Origin: Limosilactobacillus sp. WILCCON 0051
GTDB lineage: Bacteria > Bacillota > Bacilli > Lactobacillales > Lactobacillaceae
Length of the DNA: 64,000 nucleotides
Reading direction: 5' to 3'
Assembly (NCBI RefSeq): GCF_039955095.1
Contig: NZ_CP154878.1
Coordinates: 1,798,001 to 1,862,000, forward strand
Part shown: piece by piece, positions 21,751-62,035 of the stretch
How the letters are laid out: every line of letters starts with the position of its first letter
Numbering within the stretch: the first letter of the stretch is position 1
Made by a program: the position numbers and the translations under genes
The notes under the pieces: generated by a model
What the model was told of the DNA's origin: nothing
Databases searched by the model: none
The model's input: the letters and a program-made list of their open reading frames with translations, nothing else

Positions 21751-21765
21751 CTGCTCATCCCCTTT

Positions 21766-24700
21766 CTAGAATCCTAATTGACGCATACGAGCGTCTTTTG
21801 CTTCCTTTTTGTACAACTGTTGCATATCAAGACTGCCTTGTGCTTTAATTGCGTCTACCTGATCACCGCTCAGACGCAACAAAATATCAAACTTGGACAG
21901 TAACTCGTCTAACTTGTGGCTCAGAGCGTCTGACTGGCGATTATTTTCACCGACAAATTGAGCATTATGGCTCAAAGTAGGATCATCGTTGCGGAATCTG
22001 GTAACGACCTCGCCAAGCAGCTGATATGCACGTGACCGTCTGCTGATGTCGGTCGGGATGACATATTCTGGCATGTTCTTTTCTGCGATCTCATAAACGC
22101 CATGGTTAGAGATCAGACCACCGTTAGCCCAGCCGTGGCCTTGACCGACATTGCCCCAGCCGCCTTCACCGCCGTGTTCCAGAGCGTTGATAGCAGCTAA
22201 GATCTGGTCATATCCATTAAGGATTTGCTTGTGGCCAGGGATTGCCCAGCGGTTAAAAGTGCTTGGAATAAACTGCAGCAGCCCTTGCGCGGGATTGCCG
22301 TTTGCCATGTTAATGTCCCAAACCTTTTGCGGTACGGTTGGATTACCGCCAGATTCGGTCTGGATCTGTTTTAACAGTTTGGAAACTTTAGTGGCGGTAG
22401 CCTCAACCCCCAAAGTCTTGAAGGCTTTGATGATGTAAGGGCGCCAGCGTTCGACACCGGCACCGCCTGGATTGGCAAGCGTCTCAAACTGCTTTTTAAT
22501 CCAGTTGCCCATCTGCTTAGCGATATAAACCGGCACGTCCTTAACCAACTCTGCAGCAAACTTAACCGGCGTGCTGACGTGGACAAATTTTTGGAATACG
22601 GATTCCATAAATTCGACCGGCTTTGACATGATTTTGTCAACCATGCCTAAAACATCATCAGTTGCATCCCCTACTTTGTTGAGCAGAGAGCTAAAAGCAT
22701 TGCCCACACCGTCTGCATAATGCGGAATCATCCCGAACATACGCGACAGCTGATAGCTCCGTTCACCATCAAGCACACTGGTACCCTTAGGCAACGGCAG
22801 AATCAAGTTGCGCTTAGCTGGGAACATCCCAACTTGCCCGTCTTTGGTCATAAACATCTCACGGTAATGTGCCGTTAAGCCGTCATTGACTTTGGCCAAA
22901 CCGCCGGGATGAGTGTCATTGGTACCGTTGGCATAGCTTGGCATTGAAATGCTGAAATCTCCACCAATCTTAGAACCGCCGACTTTATCAAGGATCCAGT
23001 TGATACCGCCCTTGATGTCATCCATCATGGTCTTGAACGGCTTGAGTACGCCATTTACCAGGTCGACAAAGTGGCGATGCACACTGCCGACTGCATTGCT
23101 AACTGCATCTTGGATCTTGCCGAAAATGTCCTGCCAAACCTTAAGCATGTCACCTAAACGACCGTTAGTCATGTCATTCAGCTTGTTGTACATGTCGGAA
23201 AAGATCTTGCGATTGAGCTTAAACATGTCCTGCGCAGTACGTTCGGTGTCTTCACCTAAGCGATCCCAACGCCCCGAAACAAGATCATGCCAAGTAGTAG
23301 TCCGGTCCTCGATAACTTTATAGCCAGCTTGGAACGTAGACTTATGTTTGTTAAACATCTGCTGAGCCGAACGGGCAGTATCGCTGCTCAATCTGTCCCA
23401 ACCACGTTTTACGTTGTCAATGCCATCGCTGGTCTTTTTTTTCAGGTCTTTCCAGCCGTCAGCAAAACTCTTTTTGGTCGAATTCCACCAATTGCCAATC
23501 TCTTTGTTGGTTTCCTTGGTTCGTTTGACGATAAGCGTACCAAGGCCCTTAAAGGCTTTGCCGAAATCTTTGGCGAACTTGCCGATCTGCTTGTGGTACT
23601 TAATGATCAGTGCAAGTGCGACTTCAATTGCAATCATCCATGGATTAAATCCAAGCGTGGCCACCTTGAGCACACGAGCAAAAAGCCCAATCCCCTTGAT
23701 CAGAGCATTAAGGCCAGACATTGCTTTGGTAAAGACAAATGCTGCCGTAACGGCTTTGGCAAAGCCAACTACTACTGCTTTATGTTTGGAACAGTACACA
23801 GCAAAGTTGACAACCGCCATTGAGAGCTTGCCAAGGTCTTTGGCCAAGTCAGCAAATGCCTGTTTAGTAGACTTTTTGCTAAAAGCTTCTGCCAAGGCTA
23901 CTGACGCCTTAGAAATTGCCGGCAGAAGTGCCTGACCAACCTCAATCTGAATTGCTTGCGAGGCATACTTAAATCGGTCTTGAGCACTCTTAGCGGACTT
24001 CATATTGCGCAGAGCTAGCTTGCCGACATAGTCTTCGTTGTACGCAGTCTTAACCTTACCTTCGACTACATCAAGGTCCTTGAGGTTATTAGATAAGATA
24101 ACAGCGGCAGACTGTGCCGACTGGCCGAATGCCTGGTTAAAGACTTTCAGCCGGTCTGCCTTAGGAACCTTTTTATTGATCTGATCAAAGATTTCTGGAA
24201 TCGATTTGAGCTTCCCAGACTTAGTCTTGAAGTCATCAATTGACAATCCATATTCTTTAAATGCCTTTGTTGCACTCTGAGATCCGCTGGACAGACGTAC
24301 AATAATCCGCTGCAGACTGGTACCGGCTTGAGATGCTTCCAAACCGTTGTTGGACAACTCACCCAGCGCTGATGCAGCATCTCTCATCGAGATACCAGCA
24401 CCTTTTGCCGTACCGCCGGCATACTGCATACCAATACCAAGCTTCGAGAAGTCGGTAGACGTAACATCAGCCGCCTTGGCCAGAGTGTTTGCCGTATAAG
24501 ACGTGGCCTGCATCATCTTGTTGGCATTGTCGGACTTCATGCCGAAAGCTTCCAGAGTTGAGGTCGTGACTTCCATCGTGTCATTAAAGTCATCCCCGGA
24601 AGCCTTAGCTGCTTTAAGCAGTTGCGGCATGGCACCCAAGGCCATTTGACTGTCGTACCCACGCTTGATCAGCGTCTGGTAACCTTCGGCGATTTGCTGT

Positions 24701-25716
24701 TGCGATACACCGTATTTGACCGACAAGCTGGAACCATCGGCATACATCTGATTGATTGCCTTCTGGACATCCTTATGCTTTTCGCCGGCAGTCGTCATCA
24801 GGTTGGTGTTGGTGACATACGTATGCTGTATGTCTTCAGCCTTCTTGGCGCCGTCAACCGTATATGCAGTAAATGCGCTGACGGCAACCCCGGCAGCCAT
24901 AACCCCGCTTTTAACAGAATCCCAGAAACTGTTTACTTGGCCTTTAAGCTGTTCCAGCCTTGGCTGAATCTGCTCAGTGTGGTCACGCATCTTGATGATT
25001 GCATTATCAACGCGAGCAATGCCGGTTGGCTCAAGGGATGCTTCCTGTACACGAAGCTGTTTAAGCTCATCTTGTGTTTTAGCAATCGACGTTGCAGTCT
25101 GGTCTAACCGCTGTTTCTGTTTGAGATAAGCGTCAGACGTTTCGCCAGAACGGCTCTTGATTTCCTCAAGCATTCTGGACTGGATTTTATACTGCTGTTG
25201 CAGGTTTTCCAGTCCGGAAGCTAGTTGATGATAGCGTGCAACGGTTTCGGAAGCAGTGCGATGCTCGGCCGCCATACGATCAACGTAGGCTTGTGATGCT
25301 GATTGCGTCAACTTGTACTTGGACTGTAGGTCTGACAAGCCAGACGCTTGATACTCATAGGCTGCTTTAGCACGCTGAGCCTGTGCTTCGTAGCTGGCTA
25401 ATTGACGGTTGGCTTGATTGATCTGCTTCTCAAGTTTCAGCCACTGGTTGGCCTGTTTCTCGTTTGACTGGTCAAGTCCTTCTTGACGACTACGCAACTC
25501 TTCGATTTTGGCACGTTGCAGCTCCATTGCCTGAGTAAGGCCATCAAGTTTTACCTTAGCCGCCTGTGTATAGTCGCCGCTGTTTTTTAAGGCTATTTCT
25601 TGAGCCTTCCAGGCATTGGTTGTGGCTGTGATTGCGTTTCGGAAGGCGGACATGCTTCCAACGGCAGAAATCGTATCAACCGAAATCCGTGTGGCCATTT
25701 CATTCTGTACTTTCAA
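21766..25716 (-). CDS. Tape measure protein with C-terminal lytic transglycosylase domain
   Basis: 1316 residues. Residues ~20-230 are coiled coil; ~260-600 carry the TP901 core (KSGVMAAGVAVSAFTAYTVDGAKKAEDIQ). Hydrophobic helices around 640-700 could span the host membrane during injection. Near residues 1110-1215 is an SLT-like lysozyme segment (QIQTESGGNP, NGNPAQGLLQFIPSTF, LEHGGEGGW). Length sets the tail length. TTG start at 25716 follows GGAGGTGG; the longer TTG start would overlap that site. Confidence 0.92.
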   Translation of the reverse strand: MKVQNEMATRISVDTISAVGSMSAFRNAITATTNAWKAQEIALKNSGDYTQAAKVKLDGLTQAMELQRAKIEELRSRQEGLDQSNEKQANQWLKLEKQINQANRQLASYEAQAQRAKAAYEYQASGLSDLQSKYKLTQSASQAYVDRMAAEHRTASETVARYHQLASGLENLQQQYKIQSRMLEEIKSRSGETSDAYLKQKQRLDQTATSIAKTQDELKQLRVQEASLEPTGIARVDNAIIKMRDHTEQIQPRLEQLKGQVNSFWDSVKSGVMAAGVAVSAFTAYTVDGAKKAEDIQHTYVTNTNLMTTAGEKHKDVQKAINQMYADGSSLSVKYGVSQQQIAEGYQTLIKRGYDSQMALGAMPQLLKAAKASGDDFNDTMEVTTSTLEAFGMKSDNANKMMQATSYTANTLAKAADVTSTDFSKLGIGMQYAGGTAKGAGISMRDAASALGELSNNGLEASQAGTSLQRIIVRLSSGSQSATKAFKEYGLSIDDFKTKSGKLKSIPEIFDQINKKVPKADRLKVFNQAFGQSAQSAAVILSNNLKDLDVVEGKVKTAYNEDYVGKLALRNMKSAKSAQDRFKYASQAIQIEVGQALLPAISKASVALAEAFSKKSTKQAFADLAKDLGKLSMAVVNFAVYCSKHKAVVVGFAKAVTAAFVFTKAMSGLNALIKGIGLFARVLKVATLGFNPWMIAIEVALALIIKYHKQIGKFAKDFGKAFKGLGTLIVKRTKETNKEIGNWWNSTKKSFADGWKDLKKKTSDGIDNVKRGWDRLSSDTARSAQQMFNKHKSTFQAGYKVIEDRTTTWHDLVSGRWDRLGEDTERTAQDMFKLNRKIFSDMYNKLNDMTNGRLGDMLKVWQDIFGKIQDAVSNAVGSVHRHFVDLVNGVLKPFKTMMDDIKGGINWILDKVGGSKIGGDFSISMPSYANGTNDTHPGGLAKVNDGLTAHYREMFMTKDGQVGMFPAKRNLILPLPKGTSVLDGERSYQLSRMFGMIPHYADGVGNAFSSLLNKVGDATDDVLGMVDKIMSKPVEFMESVFQKFVHVSTPVKFAAELVKDVPVYIAKQMGNWIKKQFETLANPGGAGVERWRPYIIKAFKTLGVEATATKVSKLLKQIQTESGGNPTVPQKVWDINMANGNPAQGLLQFIPSTFNRWAIPGHKQILNGYDQILAAINALEHGGEGGWGNVGQGHGWANGGLISNHGVYEIAEKNMPEYVIPTDISRRSRAYQLLGEVVTRFRNDDPTLSHNAQFVGENNRQSDALSHKLDELLSKFDILLRLSGDQVDAIKAQGSLDMQQLYKKEAKDARMRQLGF

Positions 25717-25717
25717 G

Positions 25718-26325
25718 CTATCCACCTCCAAACATCTTAGATAATTGCGCGTGCGCGTCTTCTGGGTTCATTGGCCTATCATCCCTTGACCGCGCATTCA
25801 AAGTTTCCAACAGTTCCAAATAGTTTTGATTGTCCAAATCATCTGGTAAAACGCCACTATTAAGCATCAATTGCTGTTTAAGGTAATTGATGTCTTCTAT
25901 TTCTTGTTTGAGTTCCCAGATTCTTTTGCGGATTTCTCCGCTACCGATTTTGGGGATTCATCCGTAGCTTTAAGTGCTTCTTGTGCTTCCTTTTCGCTAA
26001 TGCCAGACATACGACTCCGCAAGTAAGACAGATAAGCCCCAATTTCTTCTTCGGTGGCGTTGTCCCAAATACGGTCTTCATCAATATGCAACAATTGCGC
26101 GATAAATTTGATTGCGCCATTAATAAATTCAGTTTCCTGATCAATAGCTTCGACAAACTTTCCCTGCGCATCATTATCGTCAATAGGTGTATCATCCGTA
26201 ACCAAGGAAGCCTCTAGCGCCTGTTTCATTAACTGGTTAAGCTTGTACGTCACCCGAACGGTTGGCTTAACCGCAATTGGCTGTTTAATGCCAAACAGGG
26301 ATGCGTCTACTTTAATTTTTTCCAT
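25718..26325 (-). CDS. Tail assembly chaperone gpGT, made by -1 frameshift
   Basis: gpG runs from ATG 26325; near its C-terminus the ribosome can slip back one base at CCCAAAA (25948-25954) and continue for 76 codons in the overlapping frame, ending at TAG 25718-25720. The extension reads IGSGEIRKRIWELKQEIEDI and ends KMFGGG. Phage tail chaperones are commonly made in this way, the fusion binding the tape measure. The stop lies one base before the tape measure TTG start. Confidence 0.82.
25897..26325 (-). CDS. Tail assembly chaperone gpG (zero-frame product)
   Basis: 142 residues, helical, with a Ser/Lys-rich tail (ESPKSVAEKSAKESGNSNKK). Start at ATG 26325, eight bases after GAGGTG; a GTG three codons upstream overlaps the ribosome site. 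It is the abundant form; the frameshifted gpGT shares its first ~124 residues. Confidence 0.85.
   Translation of the reverse strand: MEKIKVDASLFGIKQPIAVKPTVRVTYKLNQLMKQALEASLVTDDTPIDDNDAQGKFVEAIDQETEFINGAIKFIAQLLHIDEDRIWDNATEEEIGAYLSYLRSRMSGISEKEAQEALKATDESPKSVAEKSAKESGNSNKK
25948..25954 (-). promoter_or_regulatory. Programmed -1 frameshift heptamer
   Basis: Reads C CCA AAA on the minus strand in the gpG frame, matching the X XXY YYZ rule. It allows slippage of both tRNAs into the -1 frame, which stays open to the tape measure start. Confidence 0.8.
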
Positions 26326-49140: not shown

Positions 49141-50608
49141 GTGTACCCAAAAAGTTGGAATTGAATATTAATTACTTGTAAACTGAATAAAAATTTTTCT
49201 TAGGCAACTAGCCGTGCTTCATATTGAAGTGGGGTCAGGTTGCCTAATTTTGTTTGTATCCGGCGGTGGTTGTAGTAGTCAATCCACTCTTCAATGGCTT
49301 GAGTTAAGTCTTCTTGATTGGCATAATCAGTGTCCGGCTTGATCTCTGCTTTAAGTTTGCTAAAGACGGTCTCGCAGGCGGCGTTATCCAGACACGTTGC
49401 TCGATGGGACATGCTTTGACGAATCCGACCATGCTTTAATAAGACTCGCCAGGCACGATGCTGATACTGCCAGCCTTGATCTGTATGCAGAGTTAATTGA
49501 TACCCAGTGTGCGGTAAAAGATCGATTAGCTTGCGCAAAGGCTTAAGGCTGAATTCCAGGGTTGGATGCGTCCCGATTTCCCAAGTCAGAATCTGGTTGG
49601 TTGCCAGATCCTTGACAATTTCCAGATAAACCTTACTGCCGTCCTTAGCCTTCAATTCAGTAATGTCGCAGACCATCTTTTGATATTTGCGATTGCTCAT
49701 AAAGCGACGACGGATTACGTTTTTAGCCTTCTTACCCGACGGACCTTTGGAAGAATCGTACTTGCGGCGGCGTTTGCTGTATTTCGTACATTGAAGGCCC
49801 ATCTCACGCATCAAGCGGTAAATTCGCTTGTGATTGGGCAGTGGACGATTAATAATTCGGTAGTAGTCACGCACCTGCGCGCTCAGTCGACGAACGCCAT
49901 AGTCGCCTTCAAAATATTCAAACAGGCCCTTGATGACGGATTTAAGCTCTTCTTCGGCTTCATTAGGGTGTTCAAATTTGGCCTGCCAATACTGGTAAGT
50001 TGACATAGAGATTGGCAGTGCTTCAATCAGGTCTTTCAAACGATATTTTGCCTTGAGGTCATAAATTACTTGGGCAAGTTCTTTTTTGGATGCTTTCTCA
50101 AGGCTGCCAATTTTTTTGAGGCATCGAGTTGAATCTTTAAGGATAAGTTCTCTTTTTGGAGAAGCTGATTCTGTTTTTTTAAACGTTGAATCTCTTTCTC
50201 GTGATTTGAGCTCATGTTTTGATTTCCTTCCTGGTCGTAGTTTTAAGAGGGCCGGTGCTCCATGTTCGTTGTACTGACGCTCCCATTGATAGACAGAGCC
50301 TGATGAACGAAAGCCAAAGTGGATACAGGTCTCTGGAATGGAAGCTCGGTTTTGTTGTTTCCACTTTACCAGATTTAAGCGGAAATCCCCAGTTACGGTT
50401 GGTGGATTCAATAGTTTTTCCTTGCCGAAACGTGCATAAATACCCACGCAGATTTGAAAGTCAAGCTTTGCAATCCCGTATTTGCGAGCGATCCCCCGCA
50501 GTGAACTTGCCGTTGTACAGTACTCTTCAATTGCCTTGATCTTAGTCTCTATGCTGATTTTGGTCATAAAAATACCCCCAAAGTTGTGTTTCCAACTTTG
50601 GGGGTACG
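49141..50608 (-). mobile_element. IS3-family insertion sequence with a fused transposase ORF
   Basis: Ends: GTGTACCC...AAAGTTGGAA at 49141-49160 and the inverted form, whose complement reads CGTACCCCCAAAGTTGGAA, at 50590-50608. A possible 3-bp target repeat GGT flanks them (49138-49140, 50609-50611), though the exact ends are uncertain by a base or two. About 1468 bp with one long ORF. Different from the IS at 3357-4900. Confidence 0.82.
49200..50567 (-). CDS. IS3-family transposase, single-ORF OrfAB form
   Basis: 455 residues. HTH part at ~1-120 (IEEYCTTASSLRGIARKYGIA, ETCIHFGFRSSGSVYQWERQYNEHG), HTH_21 ~195-260, rve core with Asp in MVCDITELKAKDG, Asp in LHTDQGWQYQ and Glu in DNAACETVFSKLK. 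Most IS3 members need a frameshift to join OrfA and OrfB; here both are in one frame. Stem region 50583-50605 is a strong hairpin ahead of the start. Confidence 0.92.
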   Translation of the reverse strand: MTKISIETKIKAIEEYCTTASSLRGIARKYGIAKLDFQICVGIYARFGKEKLLNPPTVTGDFRLNLVKWKQQNRASIPETCIHFGFRSSGSVYQWERQYNEHGAPALLKLRPGRKSKHELKSRERDSTFKKTESASPKRELILKDSTRCLKKIGSLEKASKKELAQVIYDLKAKYRLKDLIEALPISMSTYQYWQAKFEHPNEAEEELKSVIKGLFEYFEGDYGVRRLSAQVRDYYRIINRPLPNHKRIYRLMREMGLQCTKYSKRRRKYDSSKGPSGKKAKNVIRRRFMSNRKYQKMVCDITELKAKDGSKVYLEIVKDLATNQILTWEIGTHPTLEFSLKPLRKLIDLLPHTGYQLTLHTDQGWQYQHRAWRVLLKHGRIRQSMSHRATCLDNAACETVFSKLKAEIKPDTDYANQEDLTQAIEEWIDYYNHRRIQTKLGNLTPLQYEARLVA

Positions 50609-50659
50609 GGTCACGTCACAACTGGGCGTCATGGTTTTTTTATGATCGAATCTAATTGA

Positions 50660-50866
50660 TTAAGCGGCAAATAAGTCATTGACCGCTACAACAATCTGCT
50701 TGGGCGTCAGATTATCCTGAACGATCTGCCCAGACGCGCGCAGCTCCAGCTTGGCGTCTTGCGGCTGTTCAGCCAGTTTGGTTAGATCGACTGCTTGGTT
50801 GTTGGTATCCGTAACGTCGAAATGAGACTTCTTCATCTGGTTAATCGTAGTTTCCTTGATTTCCAT
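50660..50866 (-). CDS. Small conserved-type protein, unknown
   Basis: 68 residues, no TM helix: KETTINQMKKSHFDVTDTNNQ, then LELRASGQIVQDNLTPKQIVVAVNDLF. AAGGAAGG lies 11 bases before the ATG at 50866. Convergent with nnrD. I do not recognise the family. Confidence 0.65.
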   Translation of the reverse strand: MEIKETTINQMKKSHFDVTDTNNQAVDLTKLAEQPQDAKLELRASGQIVQDNLTPKQIVVAVNDLFAA

Positions 50867-50966
50867 AATTAAATCAGCCTTCCTTTCTTGTTTGCAACTA
50901 TGTTTTAGCACGACGCGGCCAGTTTGTTAAATAATTTGACCTTTTCTGACCAAAACTTTAGACAGT

Positions 50967-50996
50967 AAAAAAGCCCGCCCCAAAACTGAGACGAGC
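50967..50996 (-). terminator. Intrinsic terminator after the flippase gene
   Basis: GCTCGTCTC-AGTTTT-GGGGCGGGC followed by TTTTTT on the minus strand; nine pairs with some G-U. Nine bases past the flippase stop. Confidence 0.82.
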
Positions 50997-51004
50997 AGAT
51001 TGAT

Positions 51005-52645
51005 TTAATTCATATGCAGCCGTTCGCGCAAAAGCTCAGCCCGCGCGCCCAGCAGATGATCAGCCAGGCGCGATTTCAATGCCAAGTAGCCATAGATGCC
51101 GCCACCAATGGCCACGCCAACGATCAAAAGGAAGAACGCAGCATAGCGGCCGTGCGGATTAACCAGATAGCCCAGGCCGAACATCACCAGCTTGGTAACC
51201 ACAAACATGACCAGAGAAAAGGCCAGAATCTGATTGGTCGGCTTGGCCATTTCTTCAAAGTGCAGGCCAAATTCCATATTAAACGAATGCAAAATCAGGT
51301 AGTTCATCACCACCATGGCCAGGGCCGTTGCCAATAGCGGGCCCATGCCTTTTAAAAGCCAGATGCATGGGAACTGCAAAATCAGCTTGATGATCATGCC
51401 AATTCCTAGAATCTTCATCATCTTGCGGTTTTCTGAAATCCCCTGCATCATCGCGGCCGCCACGCTGTAAAGTCCCATGGCGATCGAGGCAAACGCGGCA
51501 AATTCTAAAATTACGATCCCGGCCTGATTATAACGATAAAAGACCGTGTAGACTTGCGGTGCTACGGCAACCAGTCCCAAGGAGGCCGGCACCATGATAA
51601 AGTAGAACAGCTCCAGCGCGTTTTCAATCTGCGTGCGCATGCCTTCCTGATCGCTTTTGGCGCGCGCGTTGGCCAGCAGCGGAATCACCGTCGTTGCCAT
51701 GGCCGTAGCCACCGCAATGATGATCATGTAGAGCTTGTTGGCATTAAAGCTGAACATGGCATAGACCGTATTCATTTGATAGTAGGTAAAGTGGCCAACC
51801 AACGGCATCATCTTAAAGAAGGTATATTGATCAATCAGTTGGAAGATCGTAATCCCTGATTCAATCACAATAAACGGGATGGCTTGATAAACGATCTTGA
51901 CAATCAGCTGTACCGTCGAGATTTCTGGTGTTGCCAGACTGTTTTCCAACATCTCCTCCATTGGCCGCCGGTAGTGAATCCGCGCCATAATCAAGACCGC
52001 GGCTGCTCCCAAGGCCCCGATAAAGGCAGCAAACGTTGACTGGGTAACCGCCAAGACCCAACTCCCTTTTTGGATCTTCATGACCAGATAGGTGGCTCCC
52101 AGCATATAGATGATTCTTAAGAGCTGTTCGATCAGCTGCGAGATGGCAGATGGCGCCATCCAGCTGTACCCCTGCAGATACCCCCGCGAGATGCTGATGC
52201 TGGGAATCAAGAGTACGGCCCAGGCCAAAGAACGGATGACCGGAATCTCATTAGGGTCCCCGCCATCCAGCAGTGAAGCGCCAAACATCATGATCAAGGC
52301 CGCAATCACCCCGGTTGCCATCGAAACGTACATCCCGGTATGATATAGCTTTTTGCTGATGTTGGTTTGATTGATCCCATTATAATGGGCAACCAGCTTC
52401 GACATCGCGGATGGGATCCCCGCCGTTGCGATCACCAAAAACAGGTTGTAGATGTTGTATCCCTTGGCGTAAAGCGCGTTGGCCTGATCACTGTAGGCCC
52501 CCATCCAAGTTACCCAAGGAATGATATAAAGTGCACCCAGAACTCGCGACAATACACTCCCTGCCGTCATCCAGGCCGACCCACTGAGCATTTTTGCCTT
52601 GGCTGCAGCCTGCTTGCTCGGGGCCGTTTTTTGTTGTGCATCCAT
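51005..52645 (-). CDS. Lipid II / polysaccharide flippase, YtgP (MurJ) family
   Basis: 546 residues and about 14 TM helices of the MOP superfamily. The start MLSGSAWMTAGSVLSRVLGALYIIPWVTWMG is typical of YtgP. Also GYLQGYSWMAPSAISQLIEQLLRI and MNTVYAMFSFNANKLYMIIIAVATAM. It probably moves lipid II across the membrane for wall synthesis; other isoprenoid-linked sugars are possible. Monocistronic. Confidence 0.87.
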   Translation of the reverse strand: MDAQQKTAPSKQAAAKAKMLSGSAWMTAGSVLSRVLGALYIIPWVTWMGAYSDQANALYAKGYNIYNLFLVIATAGIPSAMSKLVAHYNGINQTNISKKLYHTGMYVSMATGVIAALIMMFGASLLDGGDPNEIPVIRSLAWAVLLIPSISISRGYLQGYSWMAPSAISQLIEQLLRIIYMLGATYLVMKIQKGSWVLAVTQSTFAAFIGALGAAAVLIMARIHYRRPMEEMLENSLATPEISTVQLIVKIVYQAIPFIVIESGITIFQLIDQYTFFKMMPLVGHFTYYQMNTVYAMFSFNANKLYMIIIAVATAMATTVIPLLANARAKSDQEGMRTQIENALELFYFIMVPASLGLVAVAPQVYTVFYRYNQAGIVILEFAAFASIAMGLYSVAAAMMQGISENRKMMKILGIGMIIKLILQFPCIWLLKGMGPLLATALAMVVMNYLILHSFNMEFGLHFEEMAKPTNQILAFSLVMFVVTKLVMFGLGYLVNPHGRYAAFFLLIVGVAIGGGIYGYLALKSRLADHLLGARAELLRERLHMN

Positions 52646-52757
52646 AATTTGCTGCTTTCCTACCTTTTTAATTGTTAAAATTTCAAAAAATAATCCTAAC
52701 TATTCTAGCTTGAATTGGCAGTCAGCGCAAATCAATTAACAATTTGTTAAGAAAACC

Positions 52758-53903
52758 TTAACGGGTCGCTGCTAAAGCCTGTTTGATATCGGCAATCAGA
52801 TCAGCCGCGTCTTCAAGACCAACCGACAGCCGCAGCAGCTTAGGCGTAATCCCCAACCGCTGCCGCTGCTCGACTGAAACGTCCGCGTGCGTCTGATAGT
52901 AGGGAATCGTAATCAGACTTTCGATCCCGCCCAGACTCTCAGCAAACGTGATTACCTTAACGTGATCAAGCAGTCTTTCAACCTGATCAGCCTCTTTTAG
53001 ATAAAAGCTGATCATGCCGCCTTTGCCCGGATAAAGAACTTTTTCCACTTCCGGTGCCTGCTTAAGATACTCAACGATGGCCTGGGCATTTTTAGTGTGC
53101 TGAGCCATACGCACCTTAAGCGTCTTAAGACTTCGCAAAAGCAGCCAGGAATCAAACGAATCCAGCGTATCGCCAGTCGTAATGTAGTAGTCGTAGTATG
53201 CCTGAGCCAGTTTTTCATCCTTAACGATCACTGCCCCGCCGAGCAAATCATTATGCCCGGACAGATACTTGGTCGCGCTGTGAATAACTACGTCAGCTCC
53301 TTTTAGCAATGGCCGCTGATAGATTGGCGTGTAAAAGGTATTGTCAACGATCACCTTGATTTGCGGATCATATTCATGAACGGCTGCTGCAACTGCTTGA
53401 ATGTCAATTTCTTTCATGGTTGGATTAGAAGGCGTCTCCAGCCAGACGATTCTGGTTTTAGGCGTCAGCTTGGCAGTCAGATCAGCAAGCGAACCGCCAT
53501 CCCATTGATCAAACTCAATACCGGCATGCCGATTCAGATAATCAAAGTAGCGAAAGTCGCCGCCATACAGATCATCCAGTGAAATCAAGCGATCGCCGGT
53601 TTTTAAAATGCTTAACGAAAGCTGAACGGCCGCCATCCCGGAGCTGAGTGCAAAAGCTGCCGTCCCGCCCTCCAATTTGGCCAGCGTCTTTTCAACGGCG
53701 CGGCGATTGGGCGTTGAAAGGCGCGAGTAGGTATAGTCTTTGGTCGCGTCAAAATTGATGGCCTCTTTTAAGGTTGGGTGACGATAATTAGACGACAGAT
53801 AGATCGGCAGGGCCACCGCGCCACGCTCATCTTCATGATTGCCGGCCTGCGCTGCGATAGTTGCCAATGACGGTTCGGCTTCATTCTTTTGACATTCACA
53901 CAT
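52758..53903 (-). CDS. Cys/Met metabolism PLP enzyme (cystathionine lyase type)
   Basis: 381 residues. PLP Lys in HSATKYLSGHNDLLGGAV; YTYSRLSTPNRRAVE, SSGMAAVQLSLSILKTGDRLI, ETPSNPTMKEIDI are family marks. Could act as cystathionine beta- or gamma-lyase making homocysteine or cysteine. ATG 53903 follows AGAGGG. Read after a second enzyme of the family, 110 bases apart, under one T-box. Confidence 0.9.
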   Translation of the reverse strand: MCECQKNEAEPSLATIAAQAGNHEDERGAVALPIYLSSNYRHPTLKEAINFDATKDYTYSRLSTPNRRAVEKTLAKLEGGTAAFALSSGMAAVQLSLSILKTGDRLISLDDLYGGDFRYFDYLNRHAGIEFDQWDGGSLADLTAKLTPKTRIVWLETPSNPTMKEIDIQAVAAAVHEYDPQIKVIVDNTFYTPIYQRPLLKGADVVIHSATKYLSGHNDLLGGAVIVKDEKLAQAYYDYYITTGDTLDSFDSWLLLRSLKTLKVRMAQHTKNAQAIVEYLKQAPEVEKVLYPGKGGMISFYLKEADQVERLLDHVKVITFAESLGGIESLITIPYYQTHADVSVEQRQRLGITPKLLRLSVGLEDAADLIADIKQALAATR

Positions 53904-54012
53904 AAATAATTCCCTCTTTCTGCTATTTTCTGATTCATTCAACTGGTGATGAGACTGTTTTGATCCATGCGTTCTAATGCTGCATGCCAGTGCTATAAAA
54001 ACCTGCTGATGA

Positions 54013-55158
54013 TCAAATTGCCTTGGCTAATGCCTGATCAAGGTCCGCGATCAAGTCGCGCTGGTCCTCGATGCCAACCGCCAATCTGATCAGCCCCGGC
54101 GTAATTCCGGCTTTAAGCTGCTCAGCCGGTGAAAGCTCCGCGTGGCTCATCTTGCTTGGCAGCTCAACCAGACTTTCCACTGAGCCCAGGCTGACTGCCA
54201 ATTGAAACAGCTGCAGCGAATCAACGAACTTAACTGCATCCACATTGTCAGCCAGCTCGATTGAAAGCACGCCGCCCGCACCCTTGGCCTGGCTGCTTAG
54301 CGTTTCATAGCCTGGCTGGCCGGGCAGACCGGGATAATAGATTTTTTTGACGGCTGGCAGCGGCTGCAGATGAGCAATGATTGCCTTGACGTTGGCCTGC
54401 TGGCGATCCATTCTGACGCTTAAAGTCTGCAGCCCGCGCCGAACCAGATTGCTGTCTTCTGGCGAAAGCACGGCCCCAAGCGCGTTTTGCACAAAGTAGA
54501 GTCGGTCGCCTAATTTTTCATCATTGGTAATCACCGCGCCCGCACTGACGTCGGAATGCCCAGCCAAATATTTAGTTGCACTGTGAATCACGATATCAGC
54601 ACCTAAAGTCAATGGCTGACAAAGATAGGGACTTAAGAAAGTGTTATCGACGATCGTCAGCAAGTCATGTTTTTTAGCAACCTTGGCCACAGCCGCAATT
54701 GACGTCACCTGCAGCAGCGGATTGGTAACTGGCTCAAAATAGACTGCCTTGGTATTAGGCTGGATCGCGCGTTCAATGGCCGCCGAATCTCTGGTGTCAA
54801 CCGGTGTCGCGCTCAGCCCCCAGCGTTCAAAGAACTGATTGAGCAGCCGAAACGTGCCGCCATAGATCTGATCGCCAACGATGATATGATCGCCGGCTTT
54901 AAAAATTGCCAGCGCCGTATGAATCGCCGCCATCCCGGAAGAAAGCGCCAATCCCCGCGTACCATGCTCTAAAGCAGCCAACTGATCCTCAAGATACTGC
55001 CGTGTTGGATTTCCCGAGCGGCCGTAGTCATACTGGACTGCCGCGCCGATTTTAGGATAGCGATAGGTCGTTGAAGTATAGATTGGAACGTTGACGGCTC
55101 CCGTCTGATTGTCATTTTGGGCTGGCCCGTGCACCAGTCTGGTATTAAATTCTGTCAT
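54013..55158 (-). CDS. Cys/Met metabolism PLP enzyme (cystathionine gamma-synthase type)
   Basis: 381 residues. FNTRLVHGPAQNDNQTGAVNVPIY, YGRSGNPTRQYLEDQLAALE, SSGMAAIHTALAIFKAGDHIIVGDQIYGGTFRL, FEPVTNPLLQV and PLP Lys in HSATKYLAGHSDVSAGAV. Perhaps cystathionine gamma-synthase or lyase acting with the next gene in transsulfuration. ATG 55158 follows GGGGAAAG. First gene after the T-box leader. Confidence 0.9.
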   Translation of the reverse strand: MTEFNTRLVHGPAQNDNQTGAVNVPIYTSTTYRYPKIGAAVQYDYGRSGNPTRQYLEDQLAALEHGTRGLALSSGMAAIHTALAIFKAGDHIIVGDQIYGGTFRLLNQFFERWGLSATPVDTRDSAAIERAIQPNTKAVYFEPVTNPLLQVTSIAAVAKVAKKHDLLTIVDNTFLSPYLCQPLTLGADIVIHSATKYLAGHSDVSAGAVITNDEKLGDRLYFVQNALGAVLSPEDSNLVRRGLQTLSVRMDRQQANVKAIIAHLQPLPAVKKIYYPGLPGQPGYETLSSQAKGAGGVLSIELADNVDAVKFVDSLQLFQLAVSLGSVESLVELPSKMSHAELSPAEQLKAGITPGLIRLAVGIEDQRDLIADLDQALAKAI

Positions 55159-55179
55159 GTCTTTCCCCTTTCTCAAGGC

Positions 55180-55450
55180 AATAAAAAAGCCCTGAACCTA
55201 TTGATAGATTCAGGACGACGCAGCTGATCCGACGTGGTACCACCCGATTTTACCGCTGGATTGCCCACAGCGGCCTCAACAACACCAATTGATGTCTGGG
55301 ATGGTAACGGATCCTGCCGGGAATTCAGCCAAACTGACCAAATACCTTGCTCTGAGCTCATCTTCAGCCGCTGGTTCGTGCTGCCCTTTCACTGACGGCA
55401 GTCGCTGAAACACTAATAAAGCGGCCTACTCTTCTCATCAACGCTTTTAT
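55180..55450 (-). promoter_or_regulatory. T-box riboswitch before the PLP enzymes
   Basis: The minus strand has the T-box sequence GGGTGGTACCACG (complement at 55238-55250) and then a terminator CCTGAA...TTCAGG with TTTTTT (55185-55215). Stem I starts near 55445. GCTGAAGATGAGC is the likely specifier loop; it can be read as ATG (Met), which fits the genes, though GAT is also possible. Uncharged tRNA would raise expression. 55451-55565 upstream is AT-rich and likely holds the promoter. Confidence 0.85.
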
Positions 55451-55567
55451 AATTATTATTTAATGAATTTCTTAATTTTCACTCATTATAGTCACGCGAT
55501 TTTCTCATGTCAACTAAATTTTTTCAGTCAGCATTGAAAATTTAGTAAATCATTTTCACCAGCAACC

Positions 55568-55606
55568 TAAAAACGCCGCGGCAATCAGCCGACGACGTTT
55601 GGTTGA
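55568..55606 (-). terminator. Intrinsic terminator after the ABC transporter operon
   Basis: AAACGTCGTCGGC-TGATT-GCCGCGGCGTTTTTAGG on the minus strand, GC-rich stem then T-run, 28 bases after the binding-protein stop. Confidence 0.8.
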
Positions 55607-55633
55607 TTCATATTTTAGCGCAGCCGTCCCCGA

Positions 55634-56491
55634 CTATTTTTGATTAGTCAAGATGATGTCGCTGGCCTTGACTTCCGAGCCAAAGTAAGGCTTCAGTTCC
55701 TGGTTGTAGTCCTTTTCAAAGAAGTTTTCATCGTTAAGCTTGGTAATTTCCTTGTTGGTCCAGTTCAAAAGCGATTTGTTTCCCTTTTTGACGGCTGGGG
55801 CAATGTATGAGCTCTTACCCAGCTGCTTGATGCCAACCGTGTACTTAGGATTGTTCTTAACCCAGGCGTACAGGTAGGAGTTGTCATCAGCCAATGCTTT
55901 GGCGCGACCGTTTTTAAGCGCGTTGAACTGCTGCGTCTTGGAGTCGAACTTCAAAAGGCTGGCGCCGGTCTGGTGTTGAGTAAAGTATTGTTCAGCCGTT
56001 GTCCCCTTGTTGACGATCAGTTTTTGCCCTTTCAGCTGACTGACCTTGGTAACTGGATCGCTCTTTTTAGAAACGACCCCAACGGAAACCTTCATGTATG
56101 GCTTGGCAAAATCAACCGTCTGCTTGCGTTCCGGCGTCACAGTAAAGTTGGCCAAAACCAGATCCGCCTTGTTGGAGTTCAGCGTGTCGACCCGGTTGTT
56201 GGCGTTGACCTGCACGAACTTGGCCTTGACGCCTAAATCCTTGGCAATCCGCCGTGCCAGGTACAGATCATACCCCACGCGCTTGCCATCCTTGTTGACC
56301 CAGCCATATGGCGGCAGGTCGCCAAACACGGCAATCTTAATGTAGCCGCGCTTCTTGATTGCTGAAACCGAACTCTGATTATCAGCGGCATGGGCCGTCA
56401 CAGTGCCTGCCAGTGGTGCAAATGCCAGTAGCAAAGCGCCCAGGGCCAATACCAGCGTCTGAATCAATTTTTTAAAACTCTGCTTTTTCAT
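55634..56491 (-). CDS. Amino-acid ABC transporter, substrate-binding protein
   Basis: 285 residues. Signal peptide 1-35 ending TAHA-AD. SBP_bac_3 core: IKIAVFGDLPPYGWVNKDGK, VGYDLYLARRIAKDLG, ADLVLANFTVTPERKQTVDFAKPY, LIVNKGTTAEQYF. No lipobox Cys, unusual for a Gram-positive binding protein, and no Cys at all in the chain. Last gene of a four-gene operon behind a Cys-codon leader, so cystine or another sulphur amino acid is the likely ligand (inference). Confidence 0.88.
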   Translation of the reverse strand: MKKQSFKKLIQTLVLALGALLLAFAPLAGTVTAHAADNQSSVSAIKKRGYIKIAVFGDLPPYGWVNKDGKRVGYDLYLARRIAKDLGVKAKFVQVNANNRVDTLNSNKADLVLANFTVTPERKQTVDFAKPYMKVSVGVVSKKSDPVTKVSQLKGQKLIVNKGTTAEQYFTQHQTGASLLKFDSKTQQFNALKNGRAKALADDNSYLYAWVKNNPKYTVGIKQLGKSSYIAPAVKKGNKSLLNWTNKEITKLNDENFFEKDYNQELKPYFGSEVKASDIILTNQK

Positions 56492-56518
56492 AATCAGTTC
56501 CCCTTTTCTCAAAAAACA

Positions 56519-57259
56519 CTAAAAATCCATACTCTCCAAAAACTGCTGGGCCCGCTCAGTCTGCGGCTGCTTAAAGAACTGCTGACCCGGCGTATCCTCT
56601 AAAATATGACCATCCTCTAAGAACAATACCCGATCGGCAATCTGGGCCGCAAAGTTCATCTCGTGAGTTACGATCAGCATCGTCATGTCTTCTTCGTCAC
56701 TCAGCCTCTTGATGATCTCCAAGACCCCTCTGACCATCTCAGGGTCCAATGAGGCCGTGACCTCATCAAACAGCATCAGATCCGGATGCATGGCCAGTGC
56801 TCTGACAATGGCGATCCGCTGCTTTTGCCCACCCGACAGCTGGCGCGGGTAGGCCTGCTCATAATCGCTCAAGCCAACCATGGCCAGCAGTTTTTTGGCT
56901 TCTGCCGTTGCTTCTTTTTGTTCGCGCTGCTGAACTTTGGTCGGTGCCAGAATGATGTTTTCCAAAACCGTCATATTCGGAAACAGATCATAGCTTTGAA
57001 AAACCATGCCGATCTTTTGTCGCAGCTTTTGCCAATGCTTTTCATCGGGAATCACGTTCTGGCCTTCAAAAGTGATCTGACCGCTTTGAAAGTCCTCTAA
57101 GCCGTTCAGCGTGCGAATCGTCGTACTCTTGCCCGATCCGGAAGGTCCCAGCAGTGCCAGCACCTCGCCTTTTTTGAGCTCAAAGTTGATATCGAACAAG
57201 ACTTGGCGCTCACCGTAAAACTTGTTTAAATGCGCTACTTTTAAAATTTCTTCAGTCAA
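56519..57259 (-). CDS. Amino-acid ABC transporter, ATP-binding protein
   Basis: 246 residues. Walker A GPSGSGKST, Q-loop VFQSYDLFPN, signature LSGGQKQRIAIVRAL, Walker B LMLFDEVTASLD, H-loop VTHEMNF: a complete polar-amino-acid-type ATPase. Starts with TTG seven bases after AAGGGGG. No Cys. Confidence 0.93.
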   Translation of the reverse strand: MTEEILKVAHLNKFYGERQVLFDINFELKKGEVLALLGPSGSGKSTTIRTLNGLEDFQSGQITFEGQNVIPDEKHWQKLRQKIGMVFQSYDLFPNMTVLENIILAPTKVQQREQKEATAEAKKLLAMVGLSDYEQAYPRQLSGGQKQRIAIVRALAMHPDLMLFDEVTASLDPEMVRGVLEIIKRLSDEEDMTMLIVTHEMNFAAQIADRVLFLEDGHILEDTPGQQFFKQPQTERAQQFLESMDF

Positions 57260-57271
57260 AAGACATCCCCC

Positions 57272-57952
57272 TTAATCTGCTTGCTTGGCATCCATCTTTT
57301 TTGCCCAGCGCGACAATGGATAATCTACCAAAAAGTAAAATACGAAAATCAGGCCATAAACCCAAAAGACCCCTGTTCGATAAAGATGATTGTTGGCCTC
57401 GATAATCTGCTGTCCAATGTTGATGACGTCCATCACGCTGATCATCATCAAAAGCGAGGTCGTTTTAATCACCCGCGTTGCCAGATTGATCGTTGCCGGC
57501 AGCTCCAGTCGAAACGCTTGGGGCAATAAGACGTAGTAAAACAGCTGCTGCCGATTCAAACCCAATGCCAAGCCTGATTCCCGCTGATGCTTTGGAACCG
57601 AGATCAAAGCTCCCCGGACGATATCGCTGAATTCCGCGGCCACCCATAAGGCAAACGCGACGACAGCCATCAACGAGCCGGGCAGATTGGCTGCATGCAT
57701 CATTCTTGGCAGGATATAGTAGGCCAAAAACAATAGCACAACCGTGGGCACGATCCGGAAAAACTCGAGATAAAGCCGCAGAATCAAGCGCAGCAGCCGA
57801 TTCTTAAACGTCCGCAAGATTCCCAGCACCGCGCCTAACGCCAGCCCAATCAGCAAGGACAGCGCCGCGATCCAAACCGTCGTCCACAGCCCGCCCAGCA
57901 GTCGCGCAAAGTTATGTCCTTCCAACAAAACGTTAATTCCCGAATGTGCCAT
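57272..57952 (-). CDS. Amino-acid ABC transporter, permease 2
   Basis: 226 residues, about five TM helices, HisM-type. EFFRIVPTVVLLFLAYYILP near the centre and the coupling segment ALGLNRQQLFYYVLLPQAFR. No Cys. Overlaps the upstream permease gene by 20 bases, so coupled in translation. Confidence 0.9.
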   Translation of the reverse strand: MAHSGINVLLEGHNFARLLGGLWTTVWIAALSLLIGLALGAVLGILRTFKNRLLRLILRLYLEFFRIVPTVVLLFLAYYILPRMMHAANLPGSLMAVVAFALWVAAEFSDIVRGALISVPKHQRESGLALGLNRQQLFYYVLLPQAFRLELPATINLATRVIKTTSLLMMISVMDVINIGQQIIEANNHLYRTGVFWVYGLIFVFYFLVDYPLSRWAKKMDAKQAD

Positions 57953-58592
57953 AGCGAACCTTCCTTTCCAGCCAAGTCAAAATCAAGGACAGGGGAATCA
58001 AGATAATTGCGTAGGCGATCACCAAAACGAAAAGATATTCGTTGGAACGGTAGTAAAGACCGATCAGATCCAGCGCCGTATTCGTTAGTTCCGGAATGGC
58101 AATCACCGAAAAAATCGAGGTTTCCTTAATCAAAAAGATCACGTTGGCAGCCAGGGCAGGTACCGACAGTGCAAATCCCTGTGGAAAGACTACGTAACGG
58201 GCCAGCTGCCAGCTGCTCATTCCCAGGGCCTTGCCGGATTCCAGCTGCGTCTTGGCCACGCCGTTAAAGCCGCCGCTGAATCCTTCTGCCATGTAGGCGC
58301 CCCCTAAAAAGATCAAACCAACGATCCCACAGGCCGCCGCGCTCATTTTCCAGCCAATTACCGGAAATGCATAGTACAAAAAGAACAGCTGAATCAAAAG
58401 CGGCGTATTGCGGGCCAGCTCAACGTAAGCAGCCAGGATGCCAGCCAGATACGGGACCTTGAAATACCGCACCAGACTAACGATGATGCCCACGACCATA
58501 GCGCCTAGAATTCCCACCAGCGACAGCCACAGCGTCAATCGAAAGCCCTTGGCAAATTCAGGCAGGCTCTGCTGAATGATCGTCCAACTCAA
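57933..58592 (-). CDS. Amino-acid ABC transporter, permease 1
   Basis: 219 residues, HisM-type: YVELARNTPLLIQLFFLYYAFP and ALGMSSWQLARYVVFPQGFALS. Starts with TTG ten bases after GGGGAG. The only Cys in the four-protein operon is in its AAACGIVG. First gene after the attenuator. Confidence 0.9.
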   Translation of the reverse strand: MSWTIIQQSLPEFAKGFRLTLWLSLVGILGAMVVGIIVSLVRYFKVPYLAGILAAYVELARNTPLLIQLFFLYYAFPVIGWKMSAAACGIVGLIFLGGAYMAEGFSGGFNGVAKTQLESGKALGMSSWQLARYVVFPQGFALSVPALAANVIFLIKETSIFSVIAIPELTNTALDLIGLYYRSNEYLFVLVIAYAIILIPLSLILTWLERKVRYGTFGN

Positions 58593-58649
58593 AACTTCTC
58601 ACTCCCCTTTTAGACAAATATTTAAATAATGTCTAATCAAAAAATTGCA

Positions 58650-58747
58650 TGAAAAAAGGCCCATTGTCTTTCCATTCCTTTAATCAGCCTTTTGGGACCG
58701 CAAAAACAGTAACCCAAAAAGGCCTCAGATCGAAAAATCGATTGAGG
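58650..58747 (-). promoter_or_regulatory. Transcription attenuator of the ABC transporter operon
   Basis: Three exclusive hairpins follow the leader peptide. A: CCTCAATCGA/TCGATCTGAGG (58723-58747). B, antiterminator: GCCTTTTTGGG (58713-58723) with CCCAAAAGGC (58688-58697). C, terminator: AAAAGGC (58688-58694) with GCCTTTTTT (58652-58660). B and C share the AAAAGGC strand, as in classical amino-acid attenuators. Stalling at the leader's end would cover the start of A and favour B. Confidence 0.75.
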
Positions 58748-58753
58748 AATAGA

Positions 58754-58819
58754 TTAACAACAGGCCATCATTGACGAAAAGGCAGAAATTTCCAATGCTT
58801 TAAATTGATGCTTCAACAT
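58754..58819 (-). CDS. Leader peptide ending in Met-Met-Ala-Cys-Cys
   Basis: 21 codons beginning MLKHQFKALEIS and ending SSMMACC then TAA. GGAGG lies seven bases before the ATG at 58819. The last two codons are both TGT. It lies about 60 bases after a consensus promoter and just before the attenuator, so it likely senses Cys-tRNA (and perhaps Met-tRNA) charging. Confidence 0.75.
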   Translation of the reverse strand: MLKHQFKALEISAFSSMMACC

Positions 58820-58882
58820 AGAAATTCCTCCTTTCGCAATGAAATTCAATAATTAAAAATCTCTTAAAAATTTAATGGCTTT

Positions 58883-58911
58883 ATTATAGCGATCAAGTTT
58901 TCAATTGTCAA
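58883..58911 (-). promoter_or_regulatory. Consensus sigma-A promoter of the ABC transporter operon
   Basis: TTGACA (58906-58911), 17-base spacer, TATAAT (58883-58888): a perfect match to consensus on the minus strand. Such strength fits control by attenuation rather than by activator. Confidence 0.9.
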
Positions 58912-58988
58912 CGTCTTATTTATAGTAAGCTGTTTTACCTAATTGCCTTGAGTGCTTCAAAAGCCTATCCCAACAAGGATCAACGCAT

Positions 58989-59252
58989 TTAATATTTTTC
59001 CAGATCGACTTCAATCAGCCGCACTTCACGATCCGAAAAAGCCGTTTTCAGCTGGTCGATAGGCGTTGCTGCTGGTGCCGGCTCAAAATGGCCCAGCTTG
59101 TCATTGATCACGATCGCCAGCCCCAGCTTGGCATTTTCGATCGCCTCATCCATGGTCTGCCCCTGCGTAAATGCCTCGGGGACATCCGGAAAATCAACCT
59201 GAATCTCTTTTTCGGTTGGGGTAAAGACTGCTCCATAGCTAACCAGTTCCAT
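58989..59252 (-). CDS. HicB-like protein (orphan antitoxin family)
   Basis: 87 residues. SYGAVFTPTEKEIQVDFPDVPEAFTQGQTMDEAIENAKLGLAIVI is the HicB_lk fold, with a C-terminal DREVRLIEVDLEKY. No HicA toxin gene or DNA-binding tail is beside it, so it may be an orphan with another role. Confidence 0.8.
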   Translation of the reverse strand: MELVSYGAVFTPTEKEIQVDFPDVPEAFTQGQTMDEAIENAKLGLAIVINDKLGHFEPAPAATPIDQLKTAFSDREVRLIEVDLEKY

Positions 59253-59276
59253 TGCTGTTTCCTTTCTTTAAAATCC

Positions 59277-59318
59277 AAAAAGGCCAGCCTCGACGCTATC
59301 GAATGCTGACCTTTAAAT
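59277..59318 (-). terminator. Intrinsic terminator after leuS
   Basis: AAAGGTCAGC and GCTGGCCTTTTT pair across a 17-base loop on the minus strand, ten bases past the leuS stop. Confidence 0.8.
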
Positions 59319-61789: not shown

Positions 61790-62035
61790 TATAAAAAAAC
61801 GCCCTGCAACTAAATGCAGGACGAATCAAAATCCGCGGTACCACCTGAATTCCACGCTTTATGCATGGCCCTTGAGATTCTTAACGCGAATTTCACGTTG
61901 CCGCCTACTATTGGTTCAGCGGCAATTTTTTGAGGCCAGTTCACCAACGTCTGCTCCAGGCTTGCACCGCCGCCTGGTCTCTGTAAACAGCTGAGTTGGC
62001 TACTAACTCCTCTACGATCAAAGATTACAAACTAT
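61790..62035 (-). promoter_or_regulatory. T-box riboswitch of leuS
   Basis: T-box sequence AGGTGGTACCGCGG on the minus strand (complement at 61835-61848), terminator CGTCCTGCATTTAGTTGCAGGGCG with T-run (61796-61825). Stem I from ~62030 with GGTGAACTGGCC, where CTG (Leu) is the likely specifier. Binds uncharged tRNA-Leu to allow read-through. Confidence 0.9.

Follow-up and report, generated by a model that had tools for sequence, protein, structure and literature searches.

The window, by which we mean the whole 64,000-nucleotide stretch of Limosilactobacillus sp. WILCCON 0051 DNA that was analysed, contains on its minus strand a leader element located between a gene for a HicB-like antitoxin and a four-gene ABC operon (Table 1). 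The element has a predicted ORF, a Shine-Dalgarno (SD) sequence and a promoter, and at the sequence level these are conserved in relatives. The consensus promoter reported by the first-pass annotation, which had named no strand, was found on the minus strand, and the 21-codon ORF behind GGAGG that ends in Met-Met-Ala-Cys-Cys-stop was also recovered there as described.

Table 1. Positions of the leader features, of the genes around them and of further elements of the window
Feature	Position	Strand	Remarks
Prophage tail genes	15451-25731	-	PhageMin_Tail, Prophage_tail with NlpC/P60, gp58-like
T-box leader before Cys/Met-metabolism PLP enzyme gene	55208-55450	-	88.5 bits (gathering 93)
Solute-binding protein (family 3), relative of L-cysteine receptors	55634-56512	-	PF00497
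ABC ATPase	56519-57259	-	PF00005
ABC permease 2	57272-57952	-	PF00528; TIGR01726 above cut-off
ABC permease 1, first operon gene	57933-58592	-	PF00528; TIGR01726 above cut-off
Terminator 3' arm GACAATGGGCC with T6 tract	58652-58668	-	sequence and folds; paired part 58668-58658
Inner hairpin 2, inside terminator loop	58686-58724	-	fold
Inner hairpin 1, inside terminator loop	58725-58745	-	fold
Leader ORF MLKHQFKALEISAFSSMMACC, then stop	58754-58819	-	21 codons; ATG at 58819
Terminator 5' arm GGCCTGTTGTT	58756-58766	-	holds both Cys codons and the first stop base; folds
Putative sensor codons TGT TGT (two Cys)	58757-58762	-	followed by TAA; TGT TGT TAA at 58762-58754
SD/ORF hairpin, SD paired with codons inside the ORF	58768-58842	-	-26.6 kcal/mol
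Shine-Dalgarno GGAGG of leader	58827-58831	-	7 nt 5' of ATG; from sequence
Sigma-70-type promoter, TTGACA-17 nt-TATAAT	58883-58911	-	consensus match 12/12
HicB-like antitoxin ORF	58989-59252	-	PF15919
T-box leader before presumed leucyl-tRNA synthetase-like ORF	61814-62027	-	118.2 bits

The operon and its probable substrate

Public records name the importer merely an amino acid ABC transporter, and no NCBIfam equivalog was above its cut-off among the matches listed for the four transporter proteins (for the ATPase, the best 25 of 190). When the binding protein of the window, the only one so compared, was matched against solved structures, the best relatives were 1XT8 and 2YJP (260.2 and 259.9 bits; 268 and 249 residues), followed at a distance by the next-best at 141.6 bits, while the cystine receptor 2YLN reached 69.5 bits. 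For 1XT8 (CjaA) and 2YJP (Ngo2014) a table of PMC9824665 gives cysteine, and for 2YLN (Ngo0372) it gives cystine. Selective binding of cysteine, and its presence in the purified protein, are described for the C. jejuni and gonococcal proteins in a text which also states that genes for dedicated cysteine importers are not abundant in bacteria (PMC7373191). The operon is therefore likely to encode an L-cysteine ABC importer of the CjaA/Ngo2014 type, with L-cysteine as a more likely substrate than cystine; of the two substrates named by the first-pass annotation, cysteine is thus supported and cystine has become the less likely (260 against 69.5 bits). The four transporter proteins hold one Cys in 983 residues, where 7.3 would be expected from a background of 110 in 14,914 residues in 39 other ORFs of the window chosen by us (binomial P(<=1) = 0.006), so that the single Cys counted earlier is right and only the earlier total of 976 residues needs correction. 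Downstream of the operon, the T-box in front of the PLP enzyme gene reads AUG (Met) at the specifier position. In Paucilactobacillus (L059, 3404-8958) the operon comes directly after what we take to be two genes for PLP sulphur-enzyme-like proteins, and in L157 (2-1009, genome G298) directly after an ORF that is presumably cysteine-synthase-like.

Cys-codon leaders and T-boxes in front of orthologous operons

An orthologue of the permease is present in 87 of the 396 Lactobacillaceae genomes searched. Among 50 Limosilactobacillus genomes, 24, the window's included, have it (75-100% identity; one partial, 81%), and the remaining 26 have only paralogues near 30-36%. Each of the 24 orthologous permeases has, within 400 nt upstream, a short ORF that follows an SD and contains two or more Cys codons. 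The conservation check across Limosilactobacillus that had been proposed for the leader was thereby run and passed as far as the Cys codons are concerned, and the reading of a Cys sensor with a Cys substrate is backed by this comparison of sequences. The terminal position expected for the TGT codons is restricted to the L. mucosae and L. ingluviei lineages, although Cys codons as such persist in 24/24. L. mucosae shares the last six codons of the window leader (ATG ATG GCC TGT TGT TAA) unchanged, whereas 8 of the 16 preceding codons encode a different amino acid there. As a control, 28 upstreams of 300 nt were dinucleotide-shuffled 100 times each, which produced an ATG ORF with an SD and two or more Cys in 101 of 2800 cases (3.6%), and one with four or more in 7 of 2800. 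Because of this rate, the two Cys codons of the window leader, which are few, are weak evidence when taken alone, and the strong evidence is their conservation.

Throughout the family, 177 orthologous loci yielded 119 distinct upstreams; rows were dropped when the locus had less than 55% identity or lacked its first residues, L073 was aligned with a frame break, and L034 is rich in N. A fixed leader rule picked out 45 of the 119 upstreams, of which 41 have three or more Cys and 42 contain Cys-Cys, and a T-box motif was found in 29, none of which was also picked out by the leader rule. One upstream, from Weizmannia (Bacillaceae), carries a SAM riboswitch, and 44 have none of these. Inspection of the sequence covered 36 of those 44 (all except L034, L045, L160, L161, L162, L164, L165 and L166) and revealed Cys-codon leaders with terminators in L070 and L170, and neither leader nor T-box in the Lactobacillus-type upstreams L033, L038, L043 and L154. 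In five of the 36, namely L051, L052 and L063 (Lacticaseibacillus), L047 (a MAG) and L185, a Cys-rich ORF overlaps the permease start; in all five it begins 49-55 nt before the permease and ends out of frame at +116 inside it, and it is possibly a translational version of the sensor. Furthermore, a permease tree of 69 rows requires four changes of the leader label, at least three of them forced by well-supported branches, and unites the 16 Cys-type T-box rows in one group and L047, L051, L052, L063 and L070 in another.

In 38 distinct leaders, those listed by then rather than all 45 and with L170 left out, Cys makes up 143 of 1121 non-start residues against a background of 0.4%, the leaders having been chosen for Cys; taken with the 24/24 conservation and the shuffle control, Cys codons are over-represented, and UGU accounts for 107 of the 143. 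The alignments and tests use related sequences, which are not independent. Gly, Trp and Tyr are depleted in the 38 ORFs. By eye, a dyad like CTAACAAAAAGTTAG was seen just 5' of the -35 box in L016, L029, L089 and others, possibly the operator of an additional regulator.

At the window leader (58650-58911), neither a T-box (RF00230, with its stem I, T-box sequence and antiterminator) nor any other Rfam family matched at the gathering threshold, and a search of 50600-59300 at E up to 1 gave no match at the leader either. Orthologous operons in sister genera do carry T-boxes, of Cys or Met type by the specifier region, so that the T-boxes which the first-pass annotation expected for lactobacilli occur at the same place in these neighbours. 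Among the 36 inspected upstreams, T-box-like leaders were seen in L030, L062, L147, L150 and L155, of which L030 is backed by the covariance score. Five orthologue T-boxes that were tested scored 62.8 to 84.6 bits, all under the Rfam gathering value of 93, and the search at gathering missed four of the five. Whether a T-box was assigned to Cys or to Met was decided from the specifier region: in GAAAGUGCGCUC the Rfam register gives GUG, one base before UGC, and UGC was taken as the specifier on the grounds that TGC is the assignment made for L. paracasei (PMC6004538) and that the ATCC 334 plasmid has the same letters. According to that source, a TGC-specifier T-box precedes glnP2-glnM2-artM2-glnH4 in L. 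paracasei FAM18149, expression of this operon is higher in cysteine-deficient than in methionine-deficient medium, and strain ATCC 334 has the transport system on a plasmid as well (PMC6004538). Plasmid 1 of ATCC 334, which we infer to be the plasmid meant, has the same four-gene order behind a T-box, with a permease 1 that is 78.4% identical. By analogy, the T-box and the expression in the sister species would be an independent sign that the operon of the window answers to cysteine. The two regulators, though placed before the same four-gene order, differ in kind, since a T-box senses uncharged tRNA by RNA contact and not by ribosome stalling.

RNA folding in the window and in its relatives

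An intrinsic terminator between the leader and the first gene is predicted from sequence and folds in the window and in relatives. In the window, its base consists of 11 pairs (58766-58756 with 58668-58658) and the stem is extended by 58753-58746 with 58678-58671, the arms being separated by an 87-nt spacer in which two hairpins are nested. The region folds with a z of -6.41 and none of 200 shuffles was equally stable, which together with the T6 tract bears out the terminator reported by the first-pass annotation. The three mutually exclusive hairpins of the same annotation were ruled out by folding, as in the minimum-energy structure the SD/ORF hairpin, the long terminator stem and the two inner hairpins all coexist, the inner two nested in the terminator. 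Because of its long loop, this terminator was unlisted by a simple terminator scan and by a search for hairpins of up to 60 nt, and was recovered by the folds; the hairpin search picked other hairpins in L001, L002, L003 and L027 rather than the terminator of the window type. The Cys codons lie in the terminator arm in four genomes, namely the window's, L. mucosae, MRS-253-APC-2B and L. ingluviei; all 11 pairs persist in the four and variation is confined to the 3' side, as would be expected if the codons hold the 5' side. The SD/ORF hairpin forms with different letters in L. mucosae, and in L. ingluviei it is weaker at the SD (pairing 0.49). Since the SD is more paired than unpaired in 26 of 39 leaders, a closing SD is not general.

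The predicted structures depend on the position of the ribosome. In the fold model, the terminator probability of the window falls from 1.00 in ribosome-free RNA to 0.00 with a ribosome on either Cys codon, and in relatives the antiterminator is predicted in truncated transcripts. The terminator probability of the window is likewise 0.00 with a ribosome at the leader stop, and because a ribosome waiting at the stop and one stalled at the Cys codons mask the arm alike, the choice between on and off in the window would have to rest on dwell time.

The other leaders examined mostly fit the classical layout in their sequences, that is, a Cys cluster, a probable antiterminator arm near the stop, and a terminator. 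In 31 other leaders the Cys cluster lies 33-81 nt before the leader stop, and in 18 of those from Limosilactobacillus and Lactobacillus the bases close to the stop include a segment resembling TTCAG...CGTAC that is able to pair with the terminator 5' arm. The reading frame across this segment differs between the two genera, so that RNA and not peptide is conserved there. In an alignment of 12 relatives, 91.0% of cells in the classical terminator are paired, with 6 pairs changed on both sides and 0 of 500 shuffles as high. The classical antiterminator has 92.2% of cells paired against 23-44% when slid, but its covariation is weak, with one pair changed on both sides. A helix between the SD and the region after the stop has 77.9% of cells paired, 4 pairs changed on both sides and 35 of 500 shuffles as high, and is partly fitted to the data because its register was picked after the slide control, the register tried first, with 43.5% of cells paired, having been rejected.

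At equilibrium, the terminator of the classical layout wins at nearly every ribosome position, so that kinetic trapping has to be assumed. Of the E. coli controls, thr, trp and his are likewise insensitive to ribosome position, while phe differs, with terminator probabilities of 0.07 and 0.00 at the first and middle Phe codons. In energies of truncated transcripts, all four E. coli leaders show the pattern of the relatives (shuffle p 0.005-0.085). A first test of arm capture, by probability for each sequence, was not above the shuffles (mean 0.53 against 0.45). A second, by energies and with six more bases, gave p<0.05 in 12 of 31 leaders by folding and in 8 of 31 by duplex, and capture was without duplex support in L006, L014 and L039 (p 0.75, 0.59 and 0.99); combined p-values are inflated by relatedness and were not used. 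A covariance model of the classical element matched 12 of 47 genomes of the genus and 9 of 396 of the family, with one copy each, at the importer, most of the matches being its own training sequences or near copies and L124 (genome G413) lying outside the training set. It gave no match in the window's genome, whose design the model does not cover; strict filters were used and few candidates were scored. The RNA shape varies between lineages while the Cys-codon ORF persists.

Proposed mechanism, alternatives and meaning

Considering the codons, the folds and the conservation, it is quite probable that the leader is a ribosome-mediated transcription attenuator of an L-cysteine ABC importer and that it senses charged tRNA-Cys. 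When cysteine is ample, the first ribosome would read TGT TGT, stop and leave before the polymerase makes the 3' arm 87 nt further on, and the SD would pair with the ORF again, which would keep a second ribosome from covering the 5' arm. The arm would then be free to form the terminator and end transcription. When cysteine is low, the ribosome would wait on TGT TGT and cover the 5' arm, no terminator would form, and the importer would be transcribed. The level of charged tRNA-Cys would thus set the time that the first ribosome spends on the arm while the polymerase crosses the 87-nt spacer. Both the dwell time and the closing of the SD behind the first ribosome, on which this model of the window rests, are inferred. 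In most of the other leaders examined, a ribosome waiting at the Cys cluster would free the segment near the stop to capture the terminator 5' arm as a classical antiterminator.

Amino-acid leader attenuators are already known. E. coli trpL, hisL, thrL and pheL share with the present leaders a short ORF behind an SD, in which the regulated amino acid is encoded, and an intrinsic terminator, and the window's relatives in addition a predicted antiterminator and similar energies of truncated transcripts. Here, in contrast, the amino acid would be Cys, the host is a Firmicute and the target an importer, and in the window the sensor codons lie inside the terminator arm, for which no antiterminator would be needed. 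Cys-rich uORFs of actinobacteria are reportedly the subject of Canestrari 2020. The uORFC-8-2 motif before Rhodobacterales cysS has two tandem Cys codons in a stem and a terminator with a U-run, as the window has, and its read-through on Cys-tRNA shortage is described as predicted (PMC8632094). As presented there, it belongs to Alphaproteobacteria and a cysteinyl-tRNA synthetase gene with UGC dominant, whereas UGU prevails in the Lactobacillaceae importer leaders (107/143). By location and host the window leader falls outside this motif, since the operon behind it encodes an ABC importer and the host is a Limosilactobacillus related to L. mucosae. Actinobacterial uORFs with runs of Cys codons near the stop precede cys operons, and no terminator hairpins were found in the mycobacterial regions (PMC1262725); translation attenuation is spoken of in M. 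smegmatis (PMC13236596). The runs of Cys codons are shared, but here intrinsic terminators follow the ORF. Among Firmicutes, the bmrB leader of Bacillus subtilis is alike in that translation of a leader ORF before an ABC transporter controls a terminator within the ORF (PMC4191407), and a His leader is described as replacing a T-box in bacilli (PMC2965389). No Cys leader for Firmicutes was found in the open-licence literature searched, subscription papers being mostly outside it.

It is unlikely that the leader senses Cys and Met together, or slow translation in general, instead of cysteine alone. Met-Met does stand before Ala-Cys-Cys, Met is 2.6-fold enriched in the 38 leaders (72 of 1121 residues, p 8e-13) although it was not used to select them, and several leaders are rich in Met (e.g. 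L102, L039 and L025), which lends some support to the earlier suggestion of "perhaps also Met". However, the enrichment of Cys is far stronger, albeit in leaders picked for Cys, Met is variable and in many leaders absent beside the Cys cluster, in one clade the orthologues are preceded by T-boxes whose specifier region contains TGC, and only the Cys codons lie fully within the terminator arm of the window. Far less probable is a nascent Cys-rich peptide that would itself be the sensor, binding metal or reacting to oxidation and so stalling the ribosome. Dense clusters such as CCPCC and CCC would suit such a peptide, but the number of Cys ranges from 2 to 6, their spacing varies and the rest of the peptide drifts, TTCAG...CGTAC is kept as RNA across frames in Limosilactobacillus and Lactobacillus, and the controlled genes resemble a cysteine importer. 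We give just as little credence to an untranslated RNA element, either a riboswitch or a protein-binding terminator, with the ORF incidental to it, since the fact that the leader folds strongly (z -5.56 and -6.41) is set against the lack of any Rfam match there, at gathering or at E up to 1, and against a shape that differs by lineage while the Cys-codon ORF stays. That a chance ORF stands ahead of the operon with an unrelated terminator is the least probable of all, as the 101 shuffled cases in 2800 have to be weighed against 24/24 conservation and terminal codons identical in L. mucosae amid drift in 8 of 16 others.

Returning to the attenuator that senses charged tRNA-Cys, three candidate leader designs can be distinguished in the family: one with a classical antiterminator, one in which, as in the window, the terminator stem contains the Cys codons, and one with a Cys-rich ORF that overlaps the importer start. 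We assume tentatively, with somewhat less than even confidence, that the window's design, without an antiterminator and with an SD that closes itself, is a single-ribosome timer that gauges the charging of tRNA-Cys through dwell time, and that the importer has passed between a Cys-type T-box, a Met-type T-box and these three Cys-codon designs in one family, with a SAM riboswitch in a Bacillaceae relative. Since the same gene carries a leader, a T-box or neither in sister genera, these operons would form a natural experiment on regulator swapping. For the leader to respond, ribosomes would have to keep up with RNA polymerase, and in the case of B. subtilis it has been questioned whether they do (PMC7858274). 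If the proposed mechanism is true, the leader suggests L-cysteine as the substrate of the importer, and in Firmicutes, for which T-boxes are the expected solution, cysteine would join the amino acids that are sensed through ribosomes stalling at intrinsic terminators.
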